Part shown: one piece after another, positions 2 through 11,446 of the stretch | How positions within the stretch are numbered: position 1 is the stretch's first letter | Layout of the letters: every line of letters begins with the position of its first letter | Source of the DNA: an uncultured Opitutales bacterium | GTDB lineage: Bacteria > Verrucomicrobiota > Verrucomicrobiia > Opitutales > Intestinicryptomonadaceae | NCBI GenBank assembly: GCA_944389915.1 | Contig: CALXOC010000086.1 | Location: 1-37,627, forward strand | Length of the DNA: 37,627 bases | Direction of reading: 5' to 3' | Program-made: the position numbers and the translations under genes | Notes under the pieces: model-generated | The model's database searches: none | What the model was told of the DNA's origin: nothing | Seen by the model: the letters and a program-made list of their open reading frames with translations, nothing else

Positions 2-1939
2 ATCGACAACATATGCTCCGCCGACAATCTCGCAAAGCGCATGAAGTTCTTTGCAGAAAAATTGTCGTCGGTAGAGTCTCCCGCCTATAAGAAGATTCTA
101 CTCGATGATCCCGCGGGGCTATCGGCACTTTTTTTCGACAAATTAGCCGCCGAAAATAAAAAGAACTGCTGCGCTCTTTCAACGCCTAAAAAAGCCCTAT
201 TTGCCATGGAGGGAAGCTTTTCTTCGGCGGATTCCGAACAAAGCAGAATTTTAATTTCTAAAGTCAGGGCGGCCTGCCTTGGGGCGCAAGAAAAGTTCCC
301 GGGTGTCGGGATAGCCTATTCCGGCGCATACAGGGTGTCGGCCGACAACGCCGAAATAGCGGAATCCGACACATCGCTATGCTTGAAGCTAAGCGCTTTT
401 CTCATGTTGATTTTGTGCCTTTTGGCCTTTAACAACAAGGCGTGCGCCTTTGCCGCCCTCCTGCCCTCCATGTCCGGAACGGCCATCGCCCTGGCGATAT
501 CGAGCCTTGCGTTAAACGAATTGTCAACCATATCGATAGCATTTGCAAGCATAGCCATCGGGGTAGGCATTGACTATGCAATTCATTTGATATACGCTTT
601 GAAATCGGCGCCCGATTCATATCCCTACGGCCTGATACGGCCGGTAAGCGCCGCCGCGGGAACTACTCTGATAGCCTTTCTAACCATGTGCGCGCTCGGC
701 AGCAAAGGTTTTTTTCAGATAGGTTTTTTCGGAGCGATATCGGTATTTAGCTCGGCGATATTAAGCTTTTTAATGCTTCCCGGCATGATACCGGGAGGCG
801 GAGACGGACGCCCCACCCCATTTGAAAGGCTCGCGCAGGCGCTAATTCTGGCCTTAAAAAGGACGCGAAAGGCTATAATTCCCGCAATTTTAACAATGAG
901 CATAGCCTCTCTATGCGCGATATCATTGCTGAAATTTGACGGCAAAATATCAAATTTAAGCGCGCGCAGCGCAGCATCTGAAAATGACTACAAAACTATC
1001 GGCAAAACTTGGGAAAAGACCTTCAATACAAAAAAAATAGCAATAAAATGCGATTCCGACGGCAAGACGCTTGCGGAGGCTCGGAAAATATCGGATTTTC
1101 TGGGCAAGAGCGGAATAGCAGACCCGTCAATAACATATATCCTGCCTCCTATCGGCGTTGCGGAAGACAACATTTTGCGTTGGAAAAAATATTGGACCCC
1201 CGAAAAGCTCAAGCTGCTCAGGGCCAACTTAGCTTCCGCGGCGCGTTCTGCGGGAATAAAAAGCGATCCCCTATTAAAGAAAATCGACGAATACTTCGGA
1301 GAAGAAACAAGCTATAATCCGAAGCAAATCATAGGCTCCGGCATTCTGAAAGCCTGGGCGGTCAGTACTCCCGACGGAATAAGTCTGGCGCTCGACGTCC
1401 CGCTTTCAAAAATCGGGGAAAGTTCAAAATTTTATGATTACATAAAAAGAAATTTCAGCGGCGCCACTTATATAGATATGGAATACTTCGGCACGCATAT
1501 TTCCGAAAAAGCGAAGATGTGGCTTATAACATTCGCCAGCTTAGCGCTGGTTCTTGTAGCCGCATATCTGATAATTGCAATGGGCGGCCCAATGCGGGCC
1601 GCAAGGGTCATATTGCCGGTGCTAATAGGCTTGACGTGGGCATTAGGCGCGCTTGCGGCCCTCGGCATCGATATAAACATAGTAAATGTAATCTTTGCGA
1701 TATTTGCGGTATGCATGGCGCAGGATTACGCAATGTTTCTATCCGCGTCAAAAAAGGCGGATTCTTCGCTTGCGGCGGTTCTACTGTCGGCAGCCACAAC
1801 GGTGTGCGCATTTGGTACCTTCGCATTCGCCGAGCACCCCCTTTTAAAGGGACTGGGGCTGACCGCGGCAATTTCGATATCATCGATACTCGCAGCGAGC
1901 ATCTTATTTTTCGGCCTTTCCCTTACTGAGGAAAAATGA
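2..1939 (+). CDS. MMPL-family (RND-like) lipid exporter, 5' partial
   Basis: Inner-membrane transporter of the MMPL/RND superfamily, which in aryl-polyene and flexirubin clusters is thought to move the lipid product toward the outer membrane. The reading frame is open to the window edge, so the N-terminus is missing; the ATG at 41 is internal. The visible part has two membrane blocks. One contains the GVGIDYAIHL helix-4-type motif (about 554-600) after a run of hydrophobic helices. The second contains the matching AQDYAMFL motif near the C-terminus. A soluble periplasmic loop of about 200 residues separates them (about 940-1500), as expected for RND-fold proteins. The stop overlaps the next start (ATGA at 1936-1939), indicating translational coupling to the acyltransferase. 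Family assignment is firm; the substrate is inferred from the neighbouring ketosynthases. Confidence 0.88.
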   Translation: MDNICSADNLAKRMKFFAEKLSSVESPAYKKILLDDPAGLSALFFDKLAAENKKNCCALSTPKKALFAMEGSFSSADSEQSRILISKVRAACLGAQEKFPGVGIAYSGAYRVSADNAEIAESDTSLCLKLSAFLMLILCLLAFNNKACAFAALLPSMSGTAIALAISSLALNELSTISIAFASIAIGVGIDYAIHLIYALKSAPDSYPYGLIRPVSAAAGTTLIAFLTMCALGSKGFFQIGFFGAISVFSSAILSFLMLPGMIPGGGDGRPTPFERLAQALILALKRTRKAIIPAILTMSIASLCAISLLKFDGKISNLSARSAASENDYKTIGKTWEKTFNTKKIAIKCDSDGKTLAEARKISDFLGKSGIADPSITYILPPIGVAEDNILRWKKYWTPEKLKLLRANLASAARSAGIKSDPLLKKIDEYFGEETSYNPKQIIGSGILKAWAVSTPDGISLALDVPLSKIGESSKFYDYIKRNFSGATYIDMEYFGTHISEKAKMWLITFASLALVLVAAYLIIAMGGPMRAARVILPVLIGLTWALGALAALGIDINIVNVIFAIFAVCMAQDYAMFLSASKKADSSLAAVLLSAATTVCAFGTFAFAEHPLLKGLGLTAAISISSILAASILFFGLSLTEEK

Positions 1940-2820
1940 AAAAAAACACCTACAGCAAAAAAATGTGGACCGGCAGAATGCGCGGAGGCTACTGGGGAAA
2001 TTATATATTTTTAAGGCTTCTAAAAATAGGACTTCTGCCGGCATATGCGCTGTTGCTTTTTGTTGCGCTCTACTATGTGCTATTCAGGATAAACTTGTTA
2101 AAAAGCTCCCGGGTGTATCTTGAAAAAATTTTAAAGCGCAAAATAAGCGTTCCCTCGCTGCCTATATTCAAATTGGCGTTAAATTTCGGGGTCTCAATGC
2201 TCGACCGCGCTGCGTTTTTCGGGGCTTCAAAAAGCGTAAGGATAGATTCAAAAGCAAGCGATACCCTTATTCGACGCGCGCTGAAAGAAAAGCGCGGGGT
2301 GATAATATTGACAGCCCATGTGGGCGGATGGCAGATAGCCTCCGCGTCCCTTGCGTCTTTCGGCATTCCCGTGTCGGTAATAGGCGAAGAGAACGAAGAC
2401 GAAAAAATTAAACGCCTAATATCCGGCAACGATAAATTCACCCCACCAAATATAATCCCCAACAGCCCCGAAAGTTTTTTCTACGCCTATTCCGCGCTAA
2501 AGCGCGGACACCTATTGGCCATGCACGCCGACCGCTTTATTTCCGGAAGGTTTTTAAATGCCAACTTTTTGGCTTCGGAGGCCCGCTTCCCCACATTTGC
2601 CTACGCGCTGGCGCGTAAAACCGGAGCGCGCATAATACAGGTCTTGTGCGTGAGAAAATCTCTTTTTAATTACGAGACATCGGCATTCGACATAACCCCA
2701 AAATCGGGCTGCCGCGACTTTGAGTCCGAGGCATTGCGCGCCTATGTTGGGAATATGGAATTTACGTTGGAAAGATATCCCTATCAATGGTACAATTTTT
2801 TCGATTTTTGGGCGCAGTAA
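1936..2820 (+). CDS. Lipid A lauroyl-type acyltransferase of the aryl-polyene cluster type
   Basis: 294-residue membrane-associated acyltransferase of the LpxL/HtrB-like (LABLAT) superfamily, likely joining an acyl-ACP product of this operon to a lipid head group. An N-terminal membrane helix (about residues 22-50) precedes the catalytic domain. The motif HVGGWQ (His128) aligns with the family HX4(D/E) motif but has Gln at the acidic position. The later block HADRFISGR followed by ARFPTFAYALA resembles acyltransferases found in aryl-polyene clusters (COG4261-like, from memory). It starts inside the stop of the MMPL gene (ATGA), so it is co-translated. The acceptor is unknown. Confidence 0.82.
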   Translation: MKKNTYSKKMWTGRMRGGYWGNYIFLRLLKIGLLPAYALLLFVALYYVLFRINLLKSSRVYLEKILKRKISVPSLPIFKLALNFGVSMLDRAAFFGASKSVRIDSKASDTLIRRALKEKRGVIILTAHVGGWQIASASLASFGIPVSVIGEENEDEKIKRLISGNDKFTPPNIIPNSPESFFYAYSALKRGHLLAMHADRFISGRFLNANFLASEARFPTFAYALARKTGARIIQVLCVRKSLFNYETSAFDITPKSGCRDFESEALRAYVGNMEFTLERYPYQWYNFFDFWAQ

Positions 2821-2880
2821 ATCCGTTTAAACTTGCGCGAGAAGCCTGAACTGCTACTCTGGCGAGCGAGTAATAAGAAA

Positions 2881-3144
2881 ATGGAAAGAAGCGAATTAAT
2901 TTCACAACTTAAAAATGATGTTATAGAGTGTCTAAACCTTGCGGGCACATCGCCGAATGATTTGGACGAAAATGCGCCTCTCTTCGGCGACGGCGGATTG
3001 GGATTGGATTCCATCGACGCCCTTGAACTGGTGGTTATGCTTGAGAAAAAATATTCGCTGACTATTGAGGACAAATCCGACGCCAAGACGCTATTTGCTT
3101 CCATATCCTCAATGGCCGACAGCATATTGGCTCTCAAAAAATGA
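2881..3144 (+). CDS. Acyl carrier protein
   Basis: 87-residue ACP that would carry the growing chain as a thioester on 4'-phosphopantetheine. The attachment motif is GLDSIDALEL with Ser44, followed by the usual acidic helix II/III region. The ORF can be extended to a TTG at 2833, but that extension adds 16 basic residues unlike an ACP N-terminus, so the ATG at 2881 is chosen although no strong ribosome binding site precedes it. Its last codons overlap the next gene (ATGA at 3141-3144), placing it in the same operon as the ketosynthases that use it. Confidence 0.9.
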   Translation: MERSELISQLKNDVIECLNLAGTSPNDLDENAPLFGDGGLGLDSIDALELVVMLEKKYSLTIEDKSDAKTLFASISSMADSILALKK

Positions 3145-5294
3145 TTCGAACTCCCGCAATAATAGCGCTCTCGGCTGTAGCATGCGGAGGCAAAGGCGCC
3201 GATGAAAACTGGAAATATTTATCCGGAGACTCCTTGGCTTTTGCCCCGCAAAAGCGCTTTCGCAGCCCCAAATACGCCTCTAAGCTTTGCGCATCTTTTG
3301 ACATGCAAGGCAATTCGCATAGGCGGCCGCTTTGCAACTGGGCATCTTTGTCGGCTCTTGAAGACTGCATTAAACAGGCCCCACTGACCCCGTTTTCGAA
3401 GGAGCGCATAGGGGTTTTCGCCGGCACGAGCGTCGGCAACATTTTAGAGTCTGAAAACGCCCTCGAAGATATGCTGGACAAGGGCGATGATTGTGCCGAG
3501 TATAAAAATTTCTTAAATTACGAATGCTCCTCGCTGAGCGATGCCATTGCGCGGAAAGCCCGCGCGGAGGGCCCCAGGTTTGCGGTGTCCACCGCATGCT
3601 CCAGCTCGGGGCTTGCGCTCTCGGCGGCATGCTCGGCTTTGCTTTGCGGCGACATAGACTCCGCAATAGTCTGCGGGGCAGACACGCTCTCAAGAATAAC
3701 CGTAAACGGTTTTGCCTCATTAGAGCTTCTCTCCAAATCGGCCTGCAAGCCCTTTGACGCCGATAGAGACGGAATAACTTTGGGAGAAGCCGCATGCGTG
3801 ATGATTTTGACGCGCGCCGATTTGGCCCACAAATTCGGCATAAAAATACGCGCATTCATAACTTCGTGGAGCTGCACATGCGACGCCTACCATGCTACAA
3901 GCCCGCATCCGGATGCCGAGGGCATGAAGCGCGCCATAGGGTCGGCAATAAAAAAGTCGGGACTGCCAGCCTCCGATATAGCTTACTATTGCGCCCACGG
4001 CACGGGTACCCGCGCGAACGACTCTGCGGAAGTAGCCGCAATGGTGAGCGCTTGGGAAAATCCACCGAAATTTTCTTCCATAAAGGGCAAGTTCGGGCAT
4101 ACTCTCGGCGCAAGCGGGCTTCTCAACGCCATATTTTCTTGCGAGGCAATAGAACGCGGAGAGCTGCCAAAAAATTACGGCTTTTCAAAAAGGGACGAAA
4201 ATTTGGGAATAACTCCAATCGCGGAAAACACGCCTTTCAATGCCAATAATGTTTTGACTTCGTCTTTCGGATTCGGAGGAAACAATTCATCGCTTGTGAT
4301 ATCGAAAAAACCGACGCCTTGCCTTTTCCCAGAAAAGGGGCCAAGCGAAATTTTTTTGGACGGCGGCGGGGCTGTTCACAACGGGGCAATCGGTGTTGAA
4401 AATGTTTTGGGCGGAATCGGAGTAAATCTTGAATGCGACATCTCCAAGCTGCTTCCCGAATTGCCGCCAATAAAAAAGCGCCGGTGGGCAAAGCTCCAGC
4501 AGATGGCATTGCAGTCGGTTTCAGAAGCCTTGGCCGGCTATTGCCCGGATCCTGAAAACAGCTGCGTTAGCTTCGGCACGGGACTCGGAATGTTGGAATG
4601 CACCCAGCGCTTTGTTGCTAATGTAATAAGCAAGGCAGAATGCGAAGCTCTGCCGACGGCCTTCACAAATTCCGTCCACAATGCAATAAGCTCTTCCATA
4701 GCTATCCGATTCGCAATAAAAGGCTTAAATTGCATGTTGAGCGCCAAGGAACTGTCTTTTGAATGCGCGCTATGGCAGGCTATTTTGGAAATGCGCTCCG
4801 ACGGAATTGAAAAAGCGATTGTCGGCAGTTGCGACGAACGAACGCCGCTATTGTCCAAAATACGCAATTGCGCGCTGTCTTTTGCGGACAACTCAATCCC
4901 CCTCTCGGAGACTTCCGCCGCATATCTGGCAAGCTCCACAAGGTCGCCGCGCAGCTTTGCCCGCCTGAAATTGCTCAACATAGAATCCTGCCGTAGAGAT
5001 TGCGCTTGCGAGGCCGAGCGCATAAAGCACCTAATTGACAATGCAAAAATACCTGAAATTTCATCGGTATTCTGCCCTTTTTCTTACAACAGGGCCCAGC
5101 GCAATTACTTAAGCTCGCTATTTAAGGCTCTGAAACTGCCATTATGCGAATTTTACGAAAGGCGCTTTGGCGCAAACTATTCCATTTCCGCGCTCGCTCC
5201 CATACTGGCGCGCGAGCGCGGAAAAGGATTCCACCTGTCGTACACAAAGTCGAGTACCGGGCAGCGGGCCGTGTCAATATGGGAGATTTTTTAA
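3141..5294 (+). CDS. Ketosynthase fused to a chain-length-factor-like ketosynthase domain
   Basis: 717-residue two-domain condensing enzyme. The N-terminal half (about residues 5-390) is a complete KAS I/II-type beta-ketoacyl-ACP synthase with catalytic Cys153 (STACSSSG), His286 (AHGTGT) and His320 (KFGHTLGASG), ending in the conserved SFGFGGNN glycine-rich loop. The C-terminal half (about 405-717) lacks these residues and carries a TAFTNSVHNAISSS block typical of the Ketoacyl-synt_2 (PF13723) domain found as a chain-length-factor-like protein in aryl-polyene clusters. In most known clusters these are separate proteins, so this looks like a covalent KS-CLF heterodimer. It overlaps the ACP upstream by 4 bp and the LolA-like gene downstream (TAATG). 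Domain identification is strong for the KS and good for the CLF part. Confidence 0.88.
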   Translation: MIRTPAIIALSAVACGGKGADENWKYLSGDSLAFAPQKRFRSPKYASKLCASFDMQGNSHRRPLCNWASLSALEDCIKQAPLTPFSKERIGVFAGTSVGNILESENALEDMLDKGDDCAEYKNFLNYECSSLSDAIARKARAEGPRFAVSTACSSSGLALSAACSALLCGDIDSAIVCGADTLSRITVNGFASLELLSKSACKPFDADRDGITLGEAACVMILTRADLAHKFGIKIRAFITSWSCTCDAYHATSPHPDAEGMKRAIGSAIKKSGLPASDIAYYCAHGTGTRANDSAEVAAMVSAWENPPKFSSIKGKFGHTLGASGLLNAIFSCEAIERGELPKNYGFSKRDENLGITPIAENTPFNANNVLTSSFGFGGNNSSLVISKKPTPCLFPEKGPSEIFLDGGGAVHNGAIGVENVLGGIGVNLECDISKLLPELPPIKKRRWAKLQQMALQSVSEALAGYCPDPENSCVSFGTGLGMLECTQRFVANVISKAECEALPTAFTNSVHNAISSSIAIRFAIKGLNCMLSAKELSFECALWQAILEMRSDGIEKAIVGSCDERTPLLSKIRNCALSFADNSIPLSETSAAYLASSTRSPRSFARLKLLNIESCRRDCACEAERIKHLIDNAKIPEISSVFCPFSYNRAQRNYLSSLFKALKLPLCEFYERRFGANYSISALAPILARERGKGFHLSYTKSSTGQRAVSIWEIF

Positions 5295-5935
5295 TGAAAA
5301 CATTTTTATTATGCCAATTCTTATTTGCTCTCGGAGCCCTTTCCGCATCAGCTAACTTTCCGGCGGACATCTCAAAAAGATTCAAAGAGATGAACTCCGT
5401 AAAAGTAGAGATGAGGCAGGAAAAATTTGTGAGCCTTTTGGAAGAAAAGATTGTAGCCGACATACTCCTTGTTGCCGATTCTAAAGGCAGAATACGTTGG
5501 CAGACCGGAAAAATTCCGCAAAGCATAGCCATACTTTCTGAAGGCAAATTGAGCCGTTTTGAACTTGCGAACGGGAAATATGCCGAAATAAAGTCGAGGG
5601 CAGATTCGGCAATTTTGCCGATATTAAAAAAAATTACGCAAATGGCCCTATGCGACTTTTCCGGATGCAAAAACAATTTTGATATGACATTCAAAAACGG
5701 CGTCGTAACGCTTGTGCCAAAAAGCGAAAATCTTATCTGCGCCATTTCAAAGATCGAAATAACCTTAAATAGCAATAGCACTGCGCCATCTAAAATCCGC
5801 ATTGACGCGCCGGACGGAGATTGGACCATCTATAAAATAATAAAAATAACGGAAGATCCGCAGGACCTTGAAAAGGCATTTGACACAAAGAATCCGGAGG
5901 CTTTCGGAAAAAAATCGGCATGGAGCAGACGATGA
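5294..5935 (+). CDS. LolA-like outer-membrane lipoprotein carrier
   Basis: 213-residue periplasmic protein of the LolA/LolB-like fold. LolA paralogues in aryl-polyene clusters are thought to shuttle the lipid product across the periplasm. A signal peptide is visible (MKTFLLCQFLFALGALSASA). The following segment, with a MNSVKVEMRQEKFV strand and an RIRWQTG segment, matches the start of the LolA half-barrel. The ATG at 5294 shares its first base with the TAA of the ketosynthase (TAATG), so translation is probably coupled. An in-frame ATG at 5279 would add five residues inside the previous gene and is less likely. Function is inferred from fold and context. Confidence 0.75.
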   Translation: MKTFLLCQFLFALGALSASANFPADISKRFKEMNSVKVEMRQEKFVSLLEEKIVADILLVADSKGRIRWQTGKIPQSIAILSEGKLSRFELANGKYAEIKSRADSAILPILKKITQMALCDFSGCKNNFDMTFKNGVVTLVPKSENLICAISKIEITLNSNSTAPSKIRIDAPDGDWTIYKIIKITEDPQDLEKAFDTKNPEAFGKKSAWSRR

Positions 5936-6435
5936 GAAAATTCGCAGCAATGTTCATTTTCGCTCTCCTCGGGCTCGCGCAGCTTTACGCTATAGAATCG
6001 CCCTTTAGGGGAAAATCATATTCTCAACGCGGAATATTATCCTTCGGCGGGGAATCCCTGCCAATCAGCGCGCATGTCAAATTTTTTCCCGACAACTCCA
6101 CCGCCTTGCAGATGGAGACAGCAGGCCTTGCAATAGCCAAACTCAAATTGGATTCTCGGGGGGACGCCTTGCTATGCTTTGCCCCTCCCCCTTTGGGCGA
6201 ATCCTTTGCGAAAAAATATGTATTGCCCGTCTTCAAGGCGATATTGCTTTTCGACGCCTCCTATTCGCGCGCATACTTCGATTCAAAATGGCAAATCACA
6301 AGCATTATCACGCCCCGCTTTAAGATAAATTTCAAAGATTATCCCACAGGCGGGAAGCCCCCCCGCCTTCCCCGCATACTTGAAGCTGAAGGAAGGGATT
6401 TTCGCCTGAGTCTTGAACTCGTAAATGCAAAATAG
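5932..6435 (+). CDS. Small secreted protein of the ketosynthase operon, function unknown
   Basis: 167-residue protein with a signal peptide (MRKFAAMFIFALLGLAQLYA), therefore periplasmic or outer-membrane associated. No catalytic motif is recognised. Position and size resemble the small DUF3261-type lipoprotein/periplasmic protein often found beside LolA-like and MMPL genes in aryl-polyene clusters, but no lipobox Cys is visible and the match is by context only. The start at 5932 overlaps the preceding stop as ATGA; an in-frame ATG at 5920 is possible. Its end overlaps the next gene by up to 11 bp. Confidence 0.7.
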   Translation: MRKFAAMFIFALLGLAQLYAIESPFRGKSYSQRGILSFGGESLPISAHVKFFPDNSTALQMETAGLAIAKLKLDSRGDALLCFAPPPLGESFAKKYVLPVFKAILLFDASYSRAYFDSKWQITSIITPRFKINFKDYPTGGKPPRLPRILEAEGRDFRLSLELVNAK

Positions 6436-8935
6436 AAATAATACCATGTTCCCGGACATAGACAAAACGCCGAAATCCGATGCAGAATCAATATTGCCCG
6501 AAGCGGCCATAAGCGGCGTAGGCATAATATCCCCAATCGGGTGCGATGAGAAATCCATATTGGAATCTTTAAGAAGCGGCAGAGACGGAATAGCCCAAGC
6601 TAAAAAAATAGACGTATCCGCATTCGCCTCAAAACTTTGCGCGGAAGTAGATGCTTTTGACTGCTCTTTGCATATGACAAAACGGGAGCTTTCGGAATAT
6701 ACGGACCCCTTTTTGAGATTGGCAATAAATGCCGCAAGAATGGCCCTCAAAGACGCCGGAGATGATTTGCCCAAAGGAGAAAAATTCGGCATGGTACTTG
6801 CCAGTTGCAACGCCGGATTGGCCTCAAGAGAGGCGGAATACATAAAAAAATACGCAGACCCTGCGGCGCGCTTCGATATGTCGGTATGCGCGCAATCGGA
6901 GTTTTACGCCCTGGCAAAGGTGTTGGCCAAATGTCTAAATATCACCGGCGAATGCTGGATGATAAACACAGCGTGCTCAGGCTCTACGGCGGCTATAGGA
7001 TTAGCTCAATCCCTAATAGAGAGCGGGCGCTGCGAAGCCGTCATAGCGGGAGGAGCCGATGCCATGGTACTTTCAAATTATGCCGGTTTTAACGCGTTAA
7101 AAGTGGTATCTTCGGAAAAAATTGCGCCATTCTCGACGCCTATTGGAATGAACATAGGAGAGGGCGCCGCTTTTTGGGTATTGGAGCCGATGTCGAAAGT
7201 ATCGGCAAAAAGCGGGAAGTGCTACGGCAAAGTCATAGGGCACTCAAGCTCTTTAGACGCGCACCATCCGACGCAGCCCGACCCCCGCGGCGACGGCGCA
7301 TATAGGGCAATGCTCGAAGCGCTTCGAGATTCGGGCTTGAAAGTTTCCGACATTGCCTGCATAAATGCGCACGGTTCCGGAACCGCCGCAAACGACAAAG
7401 CCGAAGCCCTGGCAATTGCGCGCTTTTGCGCCGGCGGCGAGAAGATACATGTAACCTCCACAAAGTCATACACGGCGCATTGCATGGGCGCAACGGGGAT
7501 AATAGAGGCCACATGCCAGCTATTCGCAATGAACGCGAATTTTATTCCGCCAACACTGCGCTTTTCAAATCCCCGCGCGGGTTGCGCAAACATAAGCGTT
7601 GCAAAAGAGGCAATAAACATTGATTACCCCTGCTTTTTGTCGGCAAACTACGCCTTTGCCGGGAGCAACGCAGCTATTGTGGTATCGAAGCCGGATTTTA
7701 TTTCAAAGCCCAAAACTAAAAGGGAAAAGAAAAAAATAGTCATAAGCGGAATCGGCGGCATAAGTTCTCTCGGATTGGATATTGAAACCCAATTAAGGCG
7801 GCTAATGAACGGAGATATCGGAATTGAAAAGATATCCAGATTCGCCTCGGACCGCTTCGCCGGAATGGTGGACTTGCCGCCATTGAGAAGCCTCGACAGG
7901 CGCTTAGATTTCGCGGGAATGAATCTAATAAGCATATACGCGACCCTCGCGGCAAAGGCGGCTATTGACAGCGCATCTCTGCAAATAAGGCGGGAGAATT
8001 GCGATAGAATAGGCATGGCGCTTGCAGTATGCAGGGGAAGCGACGAATCGGCCCATATGAAGGCGGTATTTGCAAATCCCGACATGCGCGGAGACATAAA
8101 CAGTTTTTCAAACATAACCGCAAATTCCACGACCGGCTGGGTTTCAAAGGCACTGGAAATAAAGGGAGCCAACACTACCCTAACAAGCGGATTAGATTCG
8201 GGCATTCAGGCTGCCGAATACGCCTACAATCTTGTTTTGGAGGGACGTTCCGACGCATGCATAGCAGTGTCCTCCGACGAGTTGTACGCGCAGGAGCTCG
8301 AAGCCTATGAGAAAGTGGGCTTCCTCTACACCGGAGAATCCGAAAGGGACTTCGGCCCCCGCTTTGACGACGACTTTAGAAGCGTCATGGGAGAGGGCGC
8401 CGCCGCGCTGTTAATCGAGAGCGAGGAATCTTCCGCAAAGCGCGGCGCAAAAATCTACGCCCGCCTTCTCTCATGTGCAAGCACCATCGATTCCTGCGAT
8501 TTTCTATCTCCCGGCATCGAATGCGACGGCCTTGAACGCGCGGCAAAAATCGCCTTAAAGCGCGCTGATTTGAGCCCCTTCGACATCGATTTAATACTGT
8601 GGGCGCCCAAAGGGAACCGGCAGGACGAAAAAACCCTGCGCTTGCTTCGTGGCATCTTCCCTGAAAAGCCCTCCTTTTGCAGCTCTTTTCAAACAGGCAA
8701 TATAGAAACCGGCGCTACTTTGCTCAATTTGGTTTTCGCGCTCGGCGCGTTGAGCCGGGGCGGGAGATTGTGGAAACAGAAAAACGCAATGATGGAAAGC
8801 CCTGCTCTTTTCGATTTTAAGCATGCCGATGACGCAAAAATATTGTGCCTGTCAAGTTCGAGAAGCGCCAACAACCACGCCCTCATATTATCTTTACCGG
8901 CAAGAACAAATAGTTTTATAGGGCCGCAACATTAG
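6425..8935 (+). CDS. Ketosynthase fused to a degenerate ketosynthase (second KS-CLF fusion)
   Basis: 836-residue condensing enzyme. Residues about 27-425 are an intact beta-ketoacyl-ACP synthase with Cys184 (NTACSGST), His316 (AHGSGT) and His352 (YTAHCMGATG). After a basic linker (about 426-437) a second full-length ketosynthase fold begins (IVISGIGGISSLG) but has lost all three catalytic residues. The Cys loop reads TLTSGLDSG, similar to the GGLDA loop of chain length factors. The HGTGT motif is replaced by WAPKGNRQD, and the GH motif by TGNIETG. The arrangement suggests a fused active/inactive heterodimer. The start at 6425 overlaps the upstream gene; ATG 6446 is an alternative. Last gene of the operon; its stop overlaps that of the convergent KAS III gene. 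Confidence 0.87.
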   Translation: MQNRNNTMFPDIDKTPKSDAESILPEAAISGVGIISPIGCDEKSILESLRSGRDGIAQAKKIDVSAFASKLCAEVDAFDCSLHMTKRELSEYTDPFLRLAINAARMALKDAGDDLPKGEKFGMVLASCNAGLASREAEYIKKYADPAARFDMSVCAQSEFYALAKVLAKCLNITGECWMINTACSGSTAAIGLAQSLIESGRCEAVIAGGADAMVLSNYAGFNALKVVSSEKIAPFSTPIGMNIGEGAAFWVLEPMSKVSAKSGKCYGKVIGHSSSLDAHHPTQPDPRGDGAYRAMLEALRDSGLKVSDIACINAHGSGTAANDKAEALAIARFCAGGEKIHVTSTKSYTAHCMGATGIIEATCQLFAMNANFIPPTLRFSNPRAGCANISVAKEAINIDYPCFLSANYAFAGSNAAIVVSKPDFISKPKTKREKKKIVISGIGGISSLGLDIETQLRRLMNGDIGIEKISRFASDRFAGMVDLPPLRSLDRRLDFAGMNLISIYATLAAKAAIDSASLQIRRENCDRIGMALAVCRGSDESAHMKAVFANPDMRGDINSFSNITANSTTGWVSKALEIKGANTTLTSGLDSGIQAAEYAYNLVLEGRSDACIAVSSDELYAQELEAYEKVGFLYTGESERDFGPRFDDDFRSVMGEGAAALLIESEESSAKRGAKIYARLLSCASTIDSCDFLSPGIECDGLERAAKIALKRADLSPFDIDLILWAPKGNRQDEKTLRLLRGIFPEKPSFCSSFQTGNIETGATLLNLVFALGALSRGGRLWKQKNAMMESPALFDFKHADDAKILCLSSSRSANNHALILSLPARTNSFIGPQH

Positions 8936-9969
8936 GAGTCTATTTGCGAATAAAGTTTGTCGGGCCAAGTCAATAGGGCGCTTCCCCACGATAACCCCAC
9001 CCCGAAAGCGCTGACAAGCACTTTCATGCCGGGTTTTAAGCGCCCGGATTTAGCGGCTTCGGCAAGGGCCAGCGGGAGGCTCGAGCCTCCGCAATTACCG
9101 TATTCGCGCACGTTGCAATACATCTTTTCCGGGGGTATGCCGAGTTTTTTTGCGATTGAGGAGAGCATCATCTCGCCCGCTTGGTGAAATACGAACAAAT
9201 CTATGTCGGCTGCAGAGATATTATTCCTTTTTAAGAGCTTTGAAACGGAGGCGGGCACTATTTTGTATGCGAATGAAAAAATCCTGAGCCCGTCTATGTA
9301 CATGTCAGCATTAGAGCGAAAATTATGGTTCTGGTCCTCGCGCACGATAAAATCTTCGGGAGCGGGGGGATTTCTGAAAGCCGAAGCCGGAACGATGAGG
9401 CTGTCGTACCCCGATCCGTCGGTGCCAAAATCAAAATCTGCGGTGTCGCCAAATTCGGAAACTTCCAATATGGAGGCGCTCGCGGCGTCGGAAAAGAGCG
9501 TTACTGCACTTTTATCCAAAGGGTTTATCAATTTTGAAGGCGTGTCTCCGGTGAGTATCAAGGCTTTGGAGCACAATCCAGACTCAATCCAAGCGCGGGC
9601 GGTCGCCAACAAATATGGATATTGAGAGCATCCGAGATTTACGTCGAAGGCGGCGCAAGACTTTGGAAGGCCGAGGCGCTCCTGAATGACGCAGGCGGTA
9701 GTCGGCATTATGTAGTCGGGAGTCTGCGTGCCAAATATCAGTAGCGAAATCTCGCCTCTATCGCAGGCGCCGGAATTAAAGAGCGCTTCCGCAGCGCTTA
9801 CAGCCAGATCCGAGGCGCATTCATTCTCGGCGCATATGCGGCGCTCATATATGCCCGTCATTCGGGTTATTTTCTCCATTACATCGCTTCCAAAACGTCC
9901 GGCCAAAACTTCGTTGGTCAATCTCCCCTTCGGAAGGGTGCATGATATGTGTGTGAGGCGCGCCTTCAA
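8932..9969 (-). CDS. 3-oxoacyl-ACP synthase III (FabH/KAS III family)
   Basis: 345-residue thiolase-fold condensing enzyme. The Cys-His-Asn triad is visible: Cys114 (NLGCSQYP), His262 (FVFHQAGEMM) and Asn292 (EYGNCGGSS). KAS III enzymes start chains by condensing an acyl-CoA with malonyl-ACP; relatives also transfer acyl groups. The usual oxyanion/dimer segment LFGDGAGA is altered to LFSDAASA. The start is a TTG at 9967-9969 preceded by an AAAGGAA Shine-Dalgarno with suitable spacing, and the protein begins directly at the conserved first strand. It faces the KS-CLF operon tail to tail, with stop codons overlapping at 8932-8935, so it may supply primers for that pathway or be independent. A paralogue lies at 21917-22975. 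Confidence 0.88.
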   Translation of the reverse strand: MKARLTHISCTLPKGRLTNEVLAGRFGSDVMEKITRMTGIYERRICAENECASDLAVSAAEALFNSGACDRGEISLLIFGTQTPDYIMPTTACVIQERLGLPKSCAAFDVNLGCSQYPYLLATARAWIESGLCSKALILTGDTPSKLINPLDKSAVTLFSDAASASILEVSEFGDTADFDFGTDGSGYDSLIVPASAFRNPPAPEDFIVREDQNHNFRSNADMYIDGLRIFSFAYKIVPASVSKLLKRNNISAADIDLFVFHQAGEMMLSSIAKKLGIPPEKMYCNVREYGNCGGSSLPLALAEAAKSGRLKPGMKVLVSAFGVGLSWGSALLTWPDKLYSQIDS

Positions 9970-10180
9970 GCGAGTTCCTTTCTATAAAACCCTGTAAAAT
10001 TAACACATCTTAAGGACTGCAATCAACAAGAATTTCCGAATTCCTTTAAAATCGAAACGCAAATAAAAAAATAAGCGATATTTGCAAAAAAAAGCTTCAC
10101 TTGAATGTCCATATGTGCAAAACTCCCGCCGCTTTCTTTTTATTATAAGAAGCACTTCTAAAACTCATACACCAATTATT

Positions 10181-11446
10181 ATGAAAAATAGAATACTTGC
10201 GCTTGTCGCATTATTTTGCACAGGCGGAGCGTTCGGAGCAGGTTTCCAAGTTTTGGAACAAGGTACCGGTAATATCGGTTCCGCGCTCGCGGGCGCAACG
10301 ACAAATGCGAATGGGGACGCCTCCGCAGCGTTCTGGAATCCGTCGGCAGTCTTCTTCTCCGGATTTGAAGTTGGCGACGTGCTTGTCGATTCGGCTATAA
10401 ATTTTATAGTTCCGAACTTCGACTTTGATGATATGGGCTCAACCGATTTGGGAATGCAGCAGGGGAACATGACAAACGTCCCAAACAACGGGGGAAACGG
10501 CGGGAAACTGGGAGTGGTTCCAAATTTCTTTGTGGTTTACCGCGCTACCGAAGATGTCAGTTTCACCTTTTCGGTAACGAGCACATACGGCCTTACAACC
10601 GAATACGACGACAACTGGTTCGGGCGCTTCCACGGAATATCGAGCGATCTCAAAACCATAGACATAAATCCAAGCCTTGCCTATAAAGTCAACGACTGGT
10701 TTTCTGTTTTCGGTGGCGTATCCGCACAATTCATACACGCGGAGCTGACACAGGCATACGCATTGGCCTTCCCAAATTTTGCAATGACAAGGCTTACCGC
10801 GCAAAGCTGGGGCATAGGAGGCAATGCCGGATTCACAATCAAGTATGCCGACGAGGGGCGCATAGGCTTCAGCTGGAGAAGCGAAGTGGCGCAGAATATA
10901 TCGGGCAATATGAGGGTAAACGGAGATGTCGTGGCCCCCGCATACGCAGATATAAACTTGCCTCAAACATTTAATGTGGGAATATACCAGCGGCTTCCCG
11001 GAAAATACAACCGCTTCGCGCTAATGGCAGACTACGCATATACACTGTGGTCTTCTTTCGACGAACTCTGCATAAAAAACGAGCAGACGGGAGCAGTAAT
11101 AAGCAATACCCAGGAATCGTGGAGCAACGTATCGCGCATATCGGTCGGATTGCATTATTATCCTGAATTTAACGAAAACTTTGTATTTCGCATCGGTTCG
11201 GCATGGGACCAATCGCCAATAAAGTCGAAAGAGCATCGAACTGTGCGCATTCCCTGCACCGACCGTATTTGGTTTGCATGCGGCATAGGATATAAATACC
11301 AGGCCCTTAGCATCGACGTCGGCTATATGTATATATGGTTCTACGACAACCCAATGATAGAAAACACCGGACCAACGGGTACTATACGAGGGGAATTTCA
11401 CGGCAGGGCAAGCGTAATTTCCGCCCAAATTAGCCTAAAATTCTAA
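10181..11446 (+). CDS. FadL/OmpP1/TodX-family outer-membrane transport protein
   Basis: 421-residue outer-membrane beta-barrel of the family that takes up long-chain fatty acids and other hydrophobic compounds. A signal peptide (MKNRILALVALFCTGGAFGA) is followed at once by the family signature GFQVLEQGTGNIGSALAG and the NPSAVFFSGF hatch motif; alternating amphipathic strands fill the rest, and the chain ends in an aromatic beta-signal (ISLKF). The open frame extends upstream to 10082, but that part is not signal-peptide-like, so the ATG at 10181 is chosen. It stands alone between a divergent KAS III gene and a terminator at 11461. The position next to lipid genes fits a role in hydrophobic substrate traffic, but the substrate is unknown. 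Confidence 0.88.
   Translation: MKNRILALVALFCTGGAFGAGFQVLEQGTGNIGSALAGATTNANGDASAAFWNPSAVFFSGFEVGDVLVDSAINFIVPNFDFDDMGSTDLGMQQGNMTNVPNNGGNGGKLGVVPNFFVVYRATEDVSFTFSVTSTYGLTTEYDDNWFGRFHGISSDLKTIDINPSLAYKVNDWFSVFGGVSAQFIHAELTQAYALAFPNFAMTRLTAQSWGIGGNAGFTIKYADEGRIGFSWRSEVAQNISGNMRVNGDVVAPAYADINLPQTFNVGIYQRLPGKYNRFALMADYAYTLWSSFDELCIKNEQTGAVISNTQESWSNVSRISVGLHYYPEFNENFVFRIGSAWDQSPIKSKEHRTVRIPCTDRIWFACGIGYKYQALSIDVGYMYIWFYDNPMIENTGPTGTIRGEFHGRASVISAQISLKF

Follow-up and report, generated by a model that had tools for sequence, protein, structure and literature searches.

Tandem ketosynthase-chain-length factor fusions in an aryl polyene-like export operon of uncultured Opitutales

Aryl polyene (APE) clusters, such as those of E. 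coli CFT073, Xenorhabdus and Acinetobacter, share with the operon described here a ketosynthase (KS) with its chain-length factor (CLF), a second KS, acyl carrier proteins (ACPs), an LpxL-type acyltransferase (AT), GT2, PlsC, a ketoreductase (KR), a dehydratase (DH), an MMPL exporter and a LolA-like carrier. In APE biosynthesis, ApeO and ApeC form a KS-CLF heterodimer of separate proteins and ApeR is a homodimer (PMC8358021). The E. coli CFT073 cluster has separate KS and CLF genes, in agreement with what the preliminary description of this DNA had said of canonical clusters. In the open-access literature we found no KS-CLF fusion in APE clusters; KS-CLF didomains were found there only in PUFA synthases, where PfaC (PDB 6riw) carries an active KS and then a CLF in one chain.

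The window analysed is a stretch of 37,627 nt that makes up the entire contig CALXOC010000086.1 (C86) of an uncultured Opitutales bacterium, whose draft genome (GCA_944389915.1) totals 2.2 Mb over 218 contigs. Seven closely spaced genes lie on the + strand at window 2-8935 (Table 1), and adjoining genes share 1-16 nt except at the AT-ACP junction. All seven of the overlapping or nearly touching genes first proposed are present, and Pfam and NCBIfam searches back the names given to its members; for the small secreted protein, the same searches gave no match. The MMPL gene lacks its 5' end, which is cut off by the contig end; an N-terminal MMPL piece lies on another contig of this genome, C176. 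The LolA-like frame opens at 5144 (5144-5935), upstream of its probable ATG. A KASIII gene, absent from the preliminary description, is convergent with the KS2-CLF2 gene and overlaps its end by 4 nt. Just past the KASIII gene, a FadL/TodX-type outer-membrane transport protein is encoded at window 10082-11446.

Table 1. Genes of the operon and the adjoining KASIII gene, in window coordinates
Feature	Position	Strand	Evidence or remark
MMPL/RND-type lipid exporter, ApeM-like	2..1939	+	HpnN 5.2e-20; hhalign to ApeM 99.3%
LpxL-type acyltransferase (AT)	1936..2820	+	PF03279 2.4e-10; hhalign to ApeJ 98.7%, 249-550
Acyl carrier protein (ACP), ApeE-type	2833..3144	+	PF00550 3.5e-7; probable ATG at 2881
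KS1-CLF1 fusion, 717 aa	3141..5294	+	PF00109+PF02801+PF13723
LolA-like periplasmic lipid carrier, ApeL-like (weak)	5294..5935	+	LolA2_flexi 2.3e-8, below cut-off; probable ATG at 5294
Small secreted protein, ~170 aa	5920..6435	+	Conserved in operon
KS2-CLF2 fusion, 836 aa	6425..8935	+	PF00109 twice, PF02801
KASIII (FabH-like) initiating ketosynthase	8932..9969	-	PRK09352 262.7 bits, above cut-off

By sequence, each of the two fusions combines an active KS with a half of KS fold that has lost the catalytic residues. In KS1-CLF1, the KS half (aa 1-395) carries C153, H286 and H320, and the CLF half (aa 400-717) has lost the Cys and both His. Similarly, the KS half of KS2-CLF2 (aa 20-425) keeps Cys-His-His, and its full-length CLF half (aa 434-836) has lost all three. 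The active/inactive pairing read from the window alone extends to the family, given that Cys-His-His is intact in all aligned N-terminal halves (11 KS1 and 10 KS2 family members). The possibility that the C-terminal halves are ordinary active KS domains fails on the same alignments, in which no C-half retains the Cys or either His. At the Cys site of CLF1 the MAFFT alignment places Glu, and Lys is possible by eye; the Cys is lost either way. The C-halves are KS-type both by Pfam and by fold, and that of KS1-CLF1 scores above the threshold of PF13723, which we take to cover ApeC-type partners.

AlphaFold models of KS1-CLF1 and KS2-CLF2, built from 9 and 7 aligned sequences, reached pTM values of 0.87 and 0.84, respectively. 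For both models the best Foldseek match was the PfaC KS-CLF didomain 6riw, over the whole length (E values of 5.1e-32 and 1.2e-40; over 900 alignment columns when gaps are counted); the matches listed by VIA-align were single KS domains and so do not bear on the didomain. Given this whole-length match, each fusion probably folds as its own KS-CLF pair within one chain, as in PfaC. Unlike PfaC, with which they share 15-16% identity, the window fusions stand alone and end after the CLF half, and neither has the dehydratase domains that follow the PfaC didomain.

For comparison with APE clusters, the E. coli CFT073 proteins served as the yardstick and profiles were compared by hhalign. In the clusters of related genomes, GT2 and AT match the two halves of ApeJ, MMPL matches ApeM, PlsC matches ApeD, KR matches ApeQ and DH matches ApeI, and the ACP is similar to ApeE. 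LolA gives a weak profile match to ApeL. The ApeM, ApeL (weakly), ApeJ, ApeQ and ApeI/P types are therefore all represented in relatives' clusters, and MMPL, AT and LolA lie in the window; the AT corresponds by profile to E. coli ApeJ in its C-terminal half, and the GT2 half is a separate gene. The small secreted protein sits at the position of ApeN, and homology to ApeN was not detected (hhalign 1.6%). These profile matches bear out the APE- or flexirubin-like gene content noted earlier. The flexirubin clusters of Bacteroidota have a related LolA2_flexi and FlxB-type reductase, but all scores are far below the curated cut-offs (LolA2_flexi, 33.7 versus 125; FlxB, in a relative, 216.8 versus 340), and the KASIII of the window is FabH-type and not DarB-type (DarB, 51.1 versus 550).

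The two KSs relate differently to those of APE clusters. The N-half of KS1 matches ApeO better than ApeR, and the CLF1 half has a weak hhalign match to ApeC (27%); the grouping of KS1 with ApeO is unsupported in the tree (51/43). The N-half of KS2 matches ApeO and ApeR equally. From these comparisons we infer that KS1-CLF1 corresponds to ApeO plus ApeC and that KS2-CLF2 stands in place of ApeR, its orthology not being clear. Judged by its genes, the operon is not a canonical APE cluster. The ApeO-type KS and ApeC-type CLF, unfused in APE clusters, occupy one open reading frame, and where those clusters have ApeR as a lone homodimeric KS, both KSs of this operon are fused to inactive halves. 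The operon further differs in a split ApeJ, the lack of an ApeN match, extra KASIII and GcvT-like genes, and the absence of a lyase or ApeH beside it.

The operon arrangement, as read from the assemblies, is conserved across the family. In genomes with long contigs the core order is GT2, MMPL, AT, ACP, KS1-CLF1, LolA, secreted protein and KS2-CLF2, usually followed by KASIII, and varying sets of ACP2, GcvT-like, KR, PlsC, FabZ-like DH, flavin reductase and VTT genes lie upstream. Several of these are encoded on other contigs of the window's own genome. C176 starts with the MMPL 5' piece, followed by GT2 (58% identical), ACP2 and the GcvT-like gene, and also holds VTT, and C153 carries flavin reductase, DH (52%) and PlsC. 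The expectation that the remaining enzymes lie beyond the window was thus correct for the dehydratase and ACP2. It failed for the KR, no cluster-type KR being found in this genome (the best match shows 40-41% identity both to the KR of relatives and to ApeQ), and for the ammonia-lyase, and the ligase lies at a separate locus. Contig C162, with a KS and FabZ, was considered as the missing left part and rejected: further APE-type genes are lacking there, and in relatives a KS of this kind occurs away from the operon.

How chains are started may also differ. Aromatic ammonia-lyase (PF00221) is absent from all 19 family genomes, and the E. coli APE cluster is likewise without a lyase. In the window's genome an AMP ligase and an SDR gene, a pair conserved in the genus, lie on contig C40 (L188:8472-10420 in G000:C40), adjoining ExbB/ExbD/TonB-like genes. 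Genus g1 has an AMP ligase of ~410 aa and an SDR at one locus, together with an ACP in some genomes; in g2 this locus adjoins the operon. In G011, KASIII is located inside the ACP-ligase-SDR locus, whereas elsewhere it is usually beside the operon. The gene neighbourhoods suggest that KASIII, ACP, ligase and SDR form a starter module that is partly at another locus.

A canonical APE pathway with an aromatic starter, in which the gene fusion is the sole difference, could account for the many APE-type genes and for the ligase, which is weakly similar to ApeH and conserved in the genus. We regard this as rather unlikely. The lack of a lyase argues against it, although that is shared with E. coli, as does the ligase, which in genus g1 is far from the operon rather than in the cluster like ApeH. 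In the best tree KS2 falls outside the ApeR group, although a single KS2+ApeR clade is not rejected (p-AU 0.151). Furthermore, in the congener G008 the fusion operon is lacking and a true canonical APE cluster is present, with separate ApeO, ApeC and ApeR (L198; G008:C11:20001-40000; ApeR and ApeQ 56% and 58% identical to those of E. coli), this being a single genome that cannot show mutual exclusion.

On balance, we favour the reading that the seven genes are the downstream part of a type II polyketide/polyene operon, a new APE-like variant that would build an exported outer-membrane polyene lipid. In this scenario, KS1-CLF1 would do the job of ApeO-ApeC, iterative elongation on the ApeE-type ACP with a pocket shaped by the CLF half, and KS2-CLF2 would be a second elongator replacing ApeR, perhaps acting on chains carried by the second ACP. 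The KR and FabZ-type DH would act after each condensation, and a conjugated polyene would remain because the cluster has no enoyl-reductase gene. Chains may be started by KASIII and the separate ACP-ligase-SDR module from an acid other than an ammonia-lyase product. The LpxL-type acyltransferase and GT2 could then attach the chain to a glycolipid, and MMPL and LolA could carry it outward.

Two features of the relatives' operons bear on the chemistry of the chain. A GcvT-like folate-binding protein is conserved alongside the operon (L042:7852-8931, L200:1422-2507); GcvT, ketosynthase and polyene were not found together in the open-access literature. KS2-CLF2 has an N-terminal extension in G006, G012, G014 and G325, which in G006 is a B12-binding/radical SAM part and in the other three has the same length or opening sequence as in G006. 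The extended proteins, taken as triple fusions, are 1236-1239 aa long in three congeners (G006 L040/L041, G012 L197:4574-8293 and G014), and that of G325 (L194:2-3475) measures at least 1157 aa. It is conceivable, if doubtful, that the two KS-CLF fusions share elongation as a separate class of polyene lipid synthase, in which one of the two is linked to the GcvT-like protein and, in some species, carries a fused B12-radical SAM enzyme, with one-carbon or radical chemistry altering the growing chain while it is on the synthase.

It is improbable that the operon encodes a special very-long-chain or hydroxy fatty acid synthase for lipid A, like the rhizobial AcpXL/FabF1XL/FabF2XL/LpxXL system. 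The LpxL-type acyltransferase within the operon would fit, as would a match of the KS2 C-half to PRK06519, a model that presumably covers rhizobial FabF2XL, but at 73 bits this match is far below the cut-off of 320, and MMPL, LolA and GT2 indicate a product that is exported separately. Still less should be expected of an anaerobic pathway to polyunsaturated or ladderane-like lipids in which B12-radical SAM enzymes act on the chain, a reading that we consider very unlikely. The triple fusions would suit such a pathway, and there is a weak match to the NCBI model rSAM_ladder_B12, at 53.8 bits against a cut-off of 360. FabF paralogs with replaced active-site residues are also reported for anammox clusters (PMC2649909). 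However, the window's KS2-CLF2 lacks a radical SAM domain, as do most relatives.

The fusions that we place in an exported polyene lipid pathway recur in most genomes of the family, whose members include Opitutales MAGs and Puniceicoccaceae bacterium Marseille-Q1082, one relative's record naming yak abomasum. The fused KS1 frame is found in 15 of the 19 genomes (the match in one of these, G005, being interrupted by a stop) and the fused KS2 frame, of at least 778 aa, in 13. In G009, a one-contig genome, there is no KS or AMP-binding match at all, and the sequence is possibly masked. The window being a contig of a draft genome, separate KS and CLF genes might seem to have been joined artefactually, by misassembly or a frameshift, but these counts, well-assembled genomes included, exclude chance or assembly error, and with residues conserved on both sides we give this practically no credence.

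Within the phylum, a CLF1-like half was found in 36 of 388 genomes. It is fused to KS1 in the family itself, in G325, G232, G216, G403 and G342, and in one copy in G330 (ORF reading), and is a separate neighbour of KS1 in most of the other genomes of those 36. The KS tree and the CLF tree each need at least four fusion or fission changes, a lower bound that gives no dated history, as tree rows were picked by trait and some are long-branched; a single clade of all fused KS1 was rejected (p-AU 1.8e-6). The joining of KS1 to CLF1 probably arose several times, and fission of the fusion is possible. CLF2 was seen solely in fused form, in the family, G325 and G339. Betaproteobacterial frames of 610-693 aa with an ApeC-type half were considered as further fusions and set aside, given that they have no in-frame KS match and that their N-terminal part looks like an out-of-frame KS gene.

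Single proteins that match most of KS1-CLF1 or KS2-CLF2 are also annotated on plasmids of Bacillota (Priestia, Pseudalkalibacillus and Lachnospira eligens), of Streptomyces and of Vibrio coralliilyticus. Those of Priestia megaterium, Lachnospira eligens and Streptomyces are 784-809 aa long, the Priestia and Streptomyces proteins have lost Cys-His-His in the second half like the window fusions, and the Priestia gene (L213) adjoins KR, ACP, FabZ and a GcvT-like gene. Unlike the window operon, they have no LolA/MMPL/LpxL export set in the stretches examined, and identity is ~25-31%. Given these plasmid proteins and PfaC, a KS-CLF fusion is in itself not new. For two KS-CLF fusions in an APE-like export operon, no earlier description was found in the open-access literature.

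A covalent fusion would fix a 1:1 stoichiometry of the two subunits and could yield another chain length. Within one phylum, this KS and CLF are encoded side by side in some cases and as repeated fusions in others, which amounts to a natural experiment on KS-CLF pairing in which one can test how covalent joining affects chain length. For the gut bacteria that carry it, the operon points to an APE-like pathway, and naming rules that presuppose unfused KS and CLF genes may give such clusters a wrong name.
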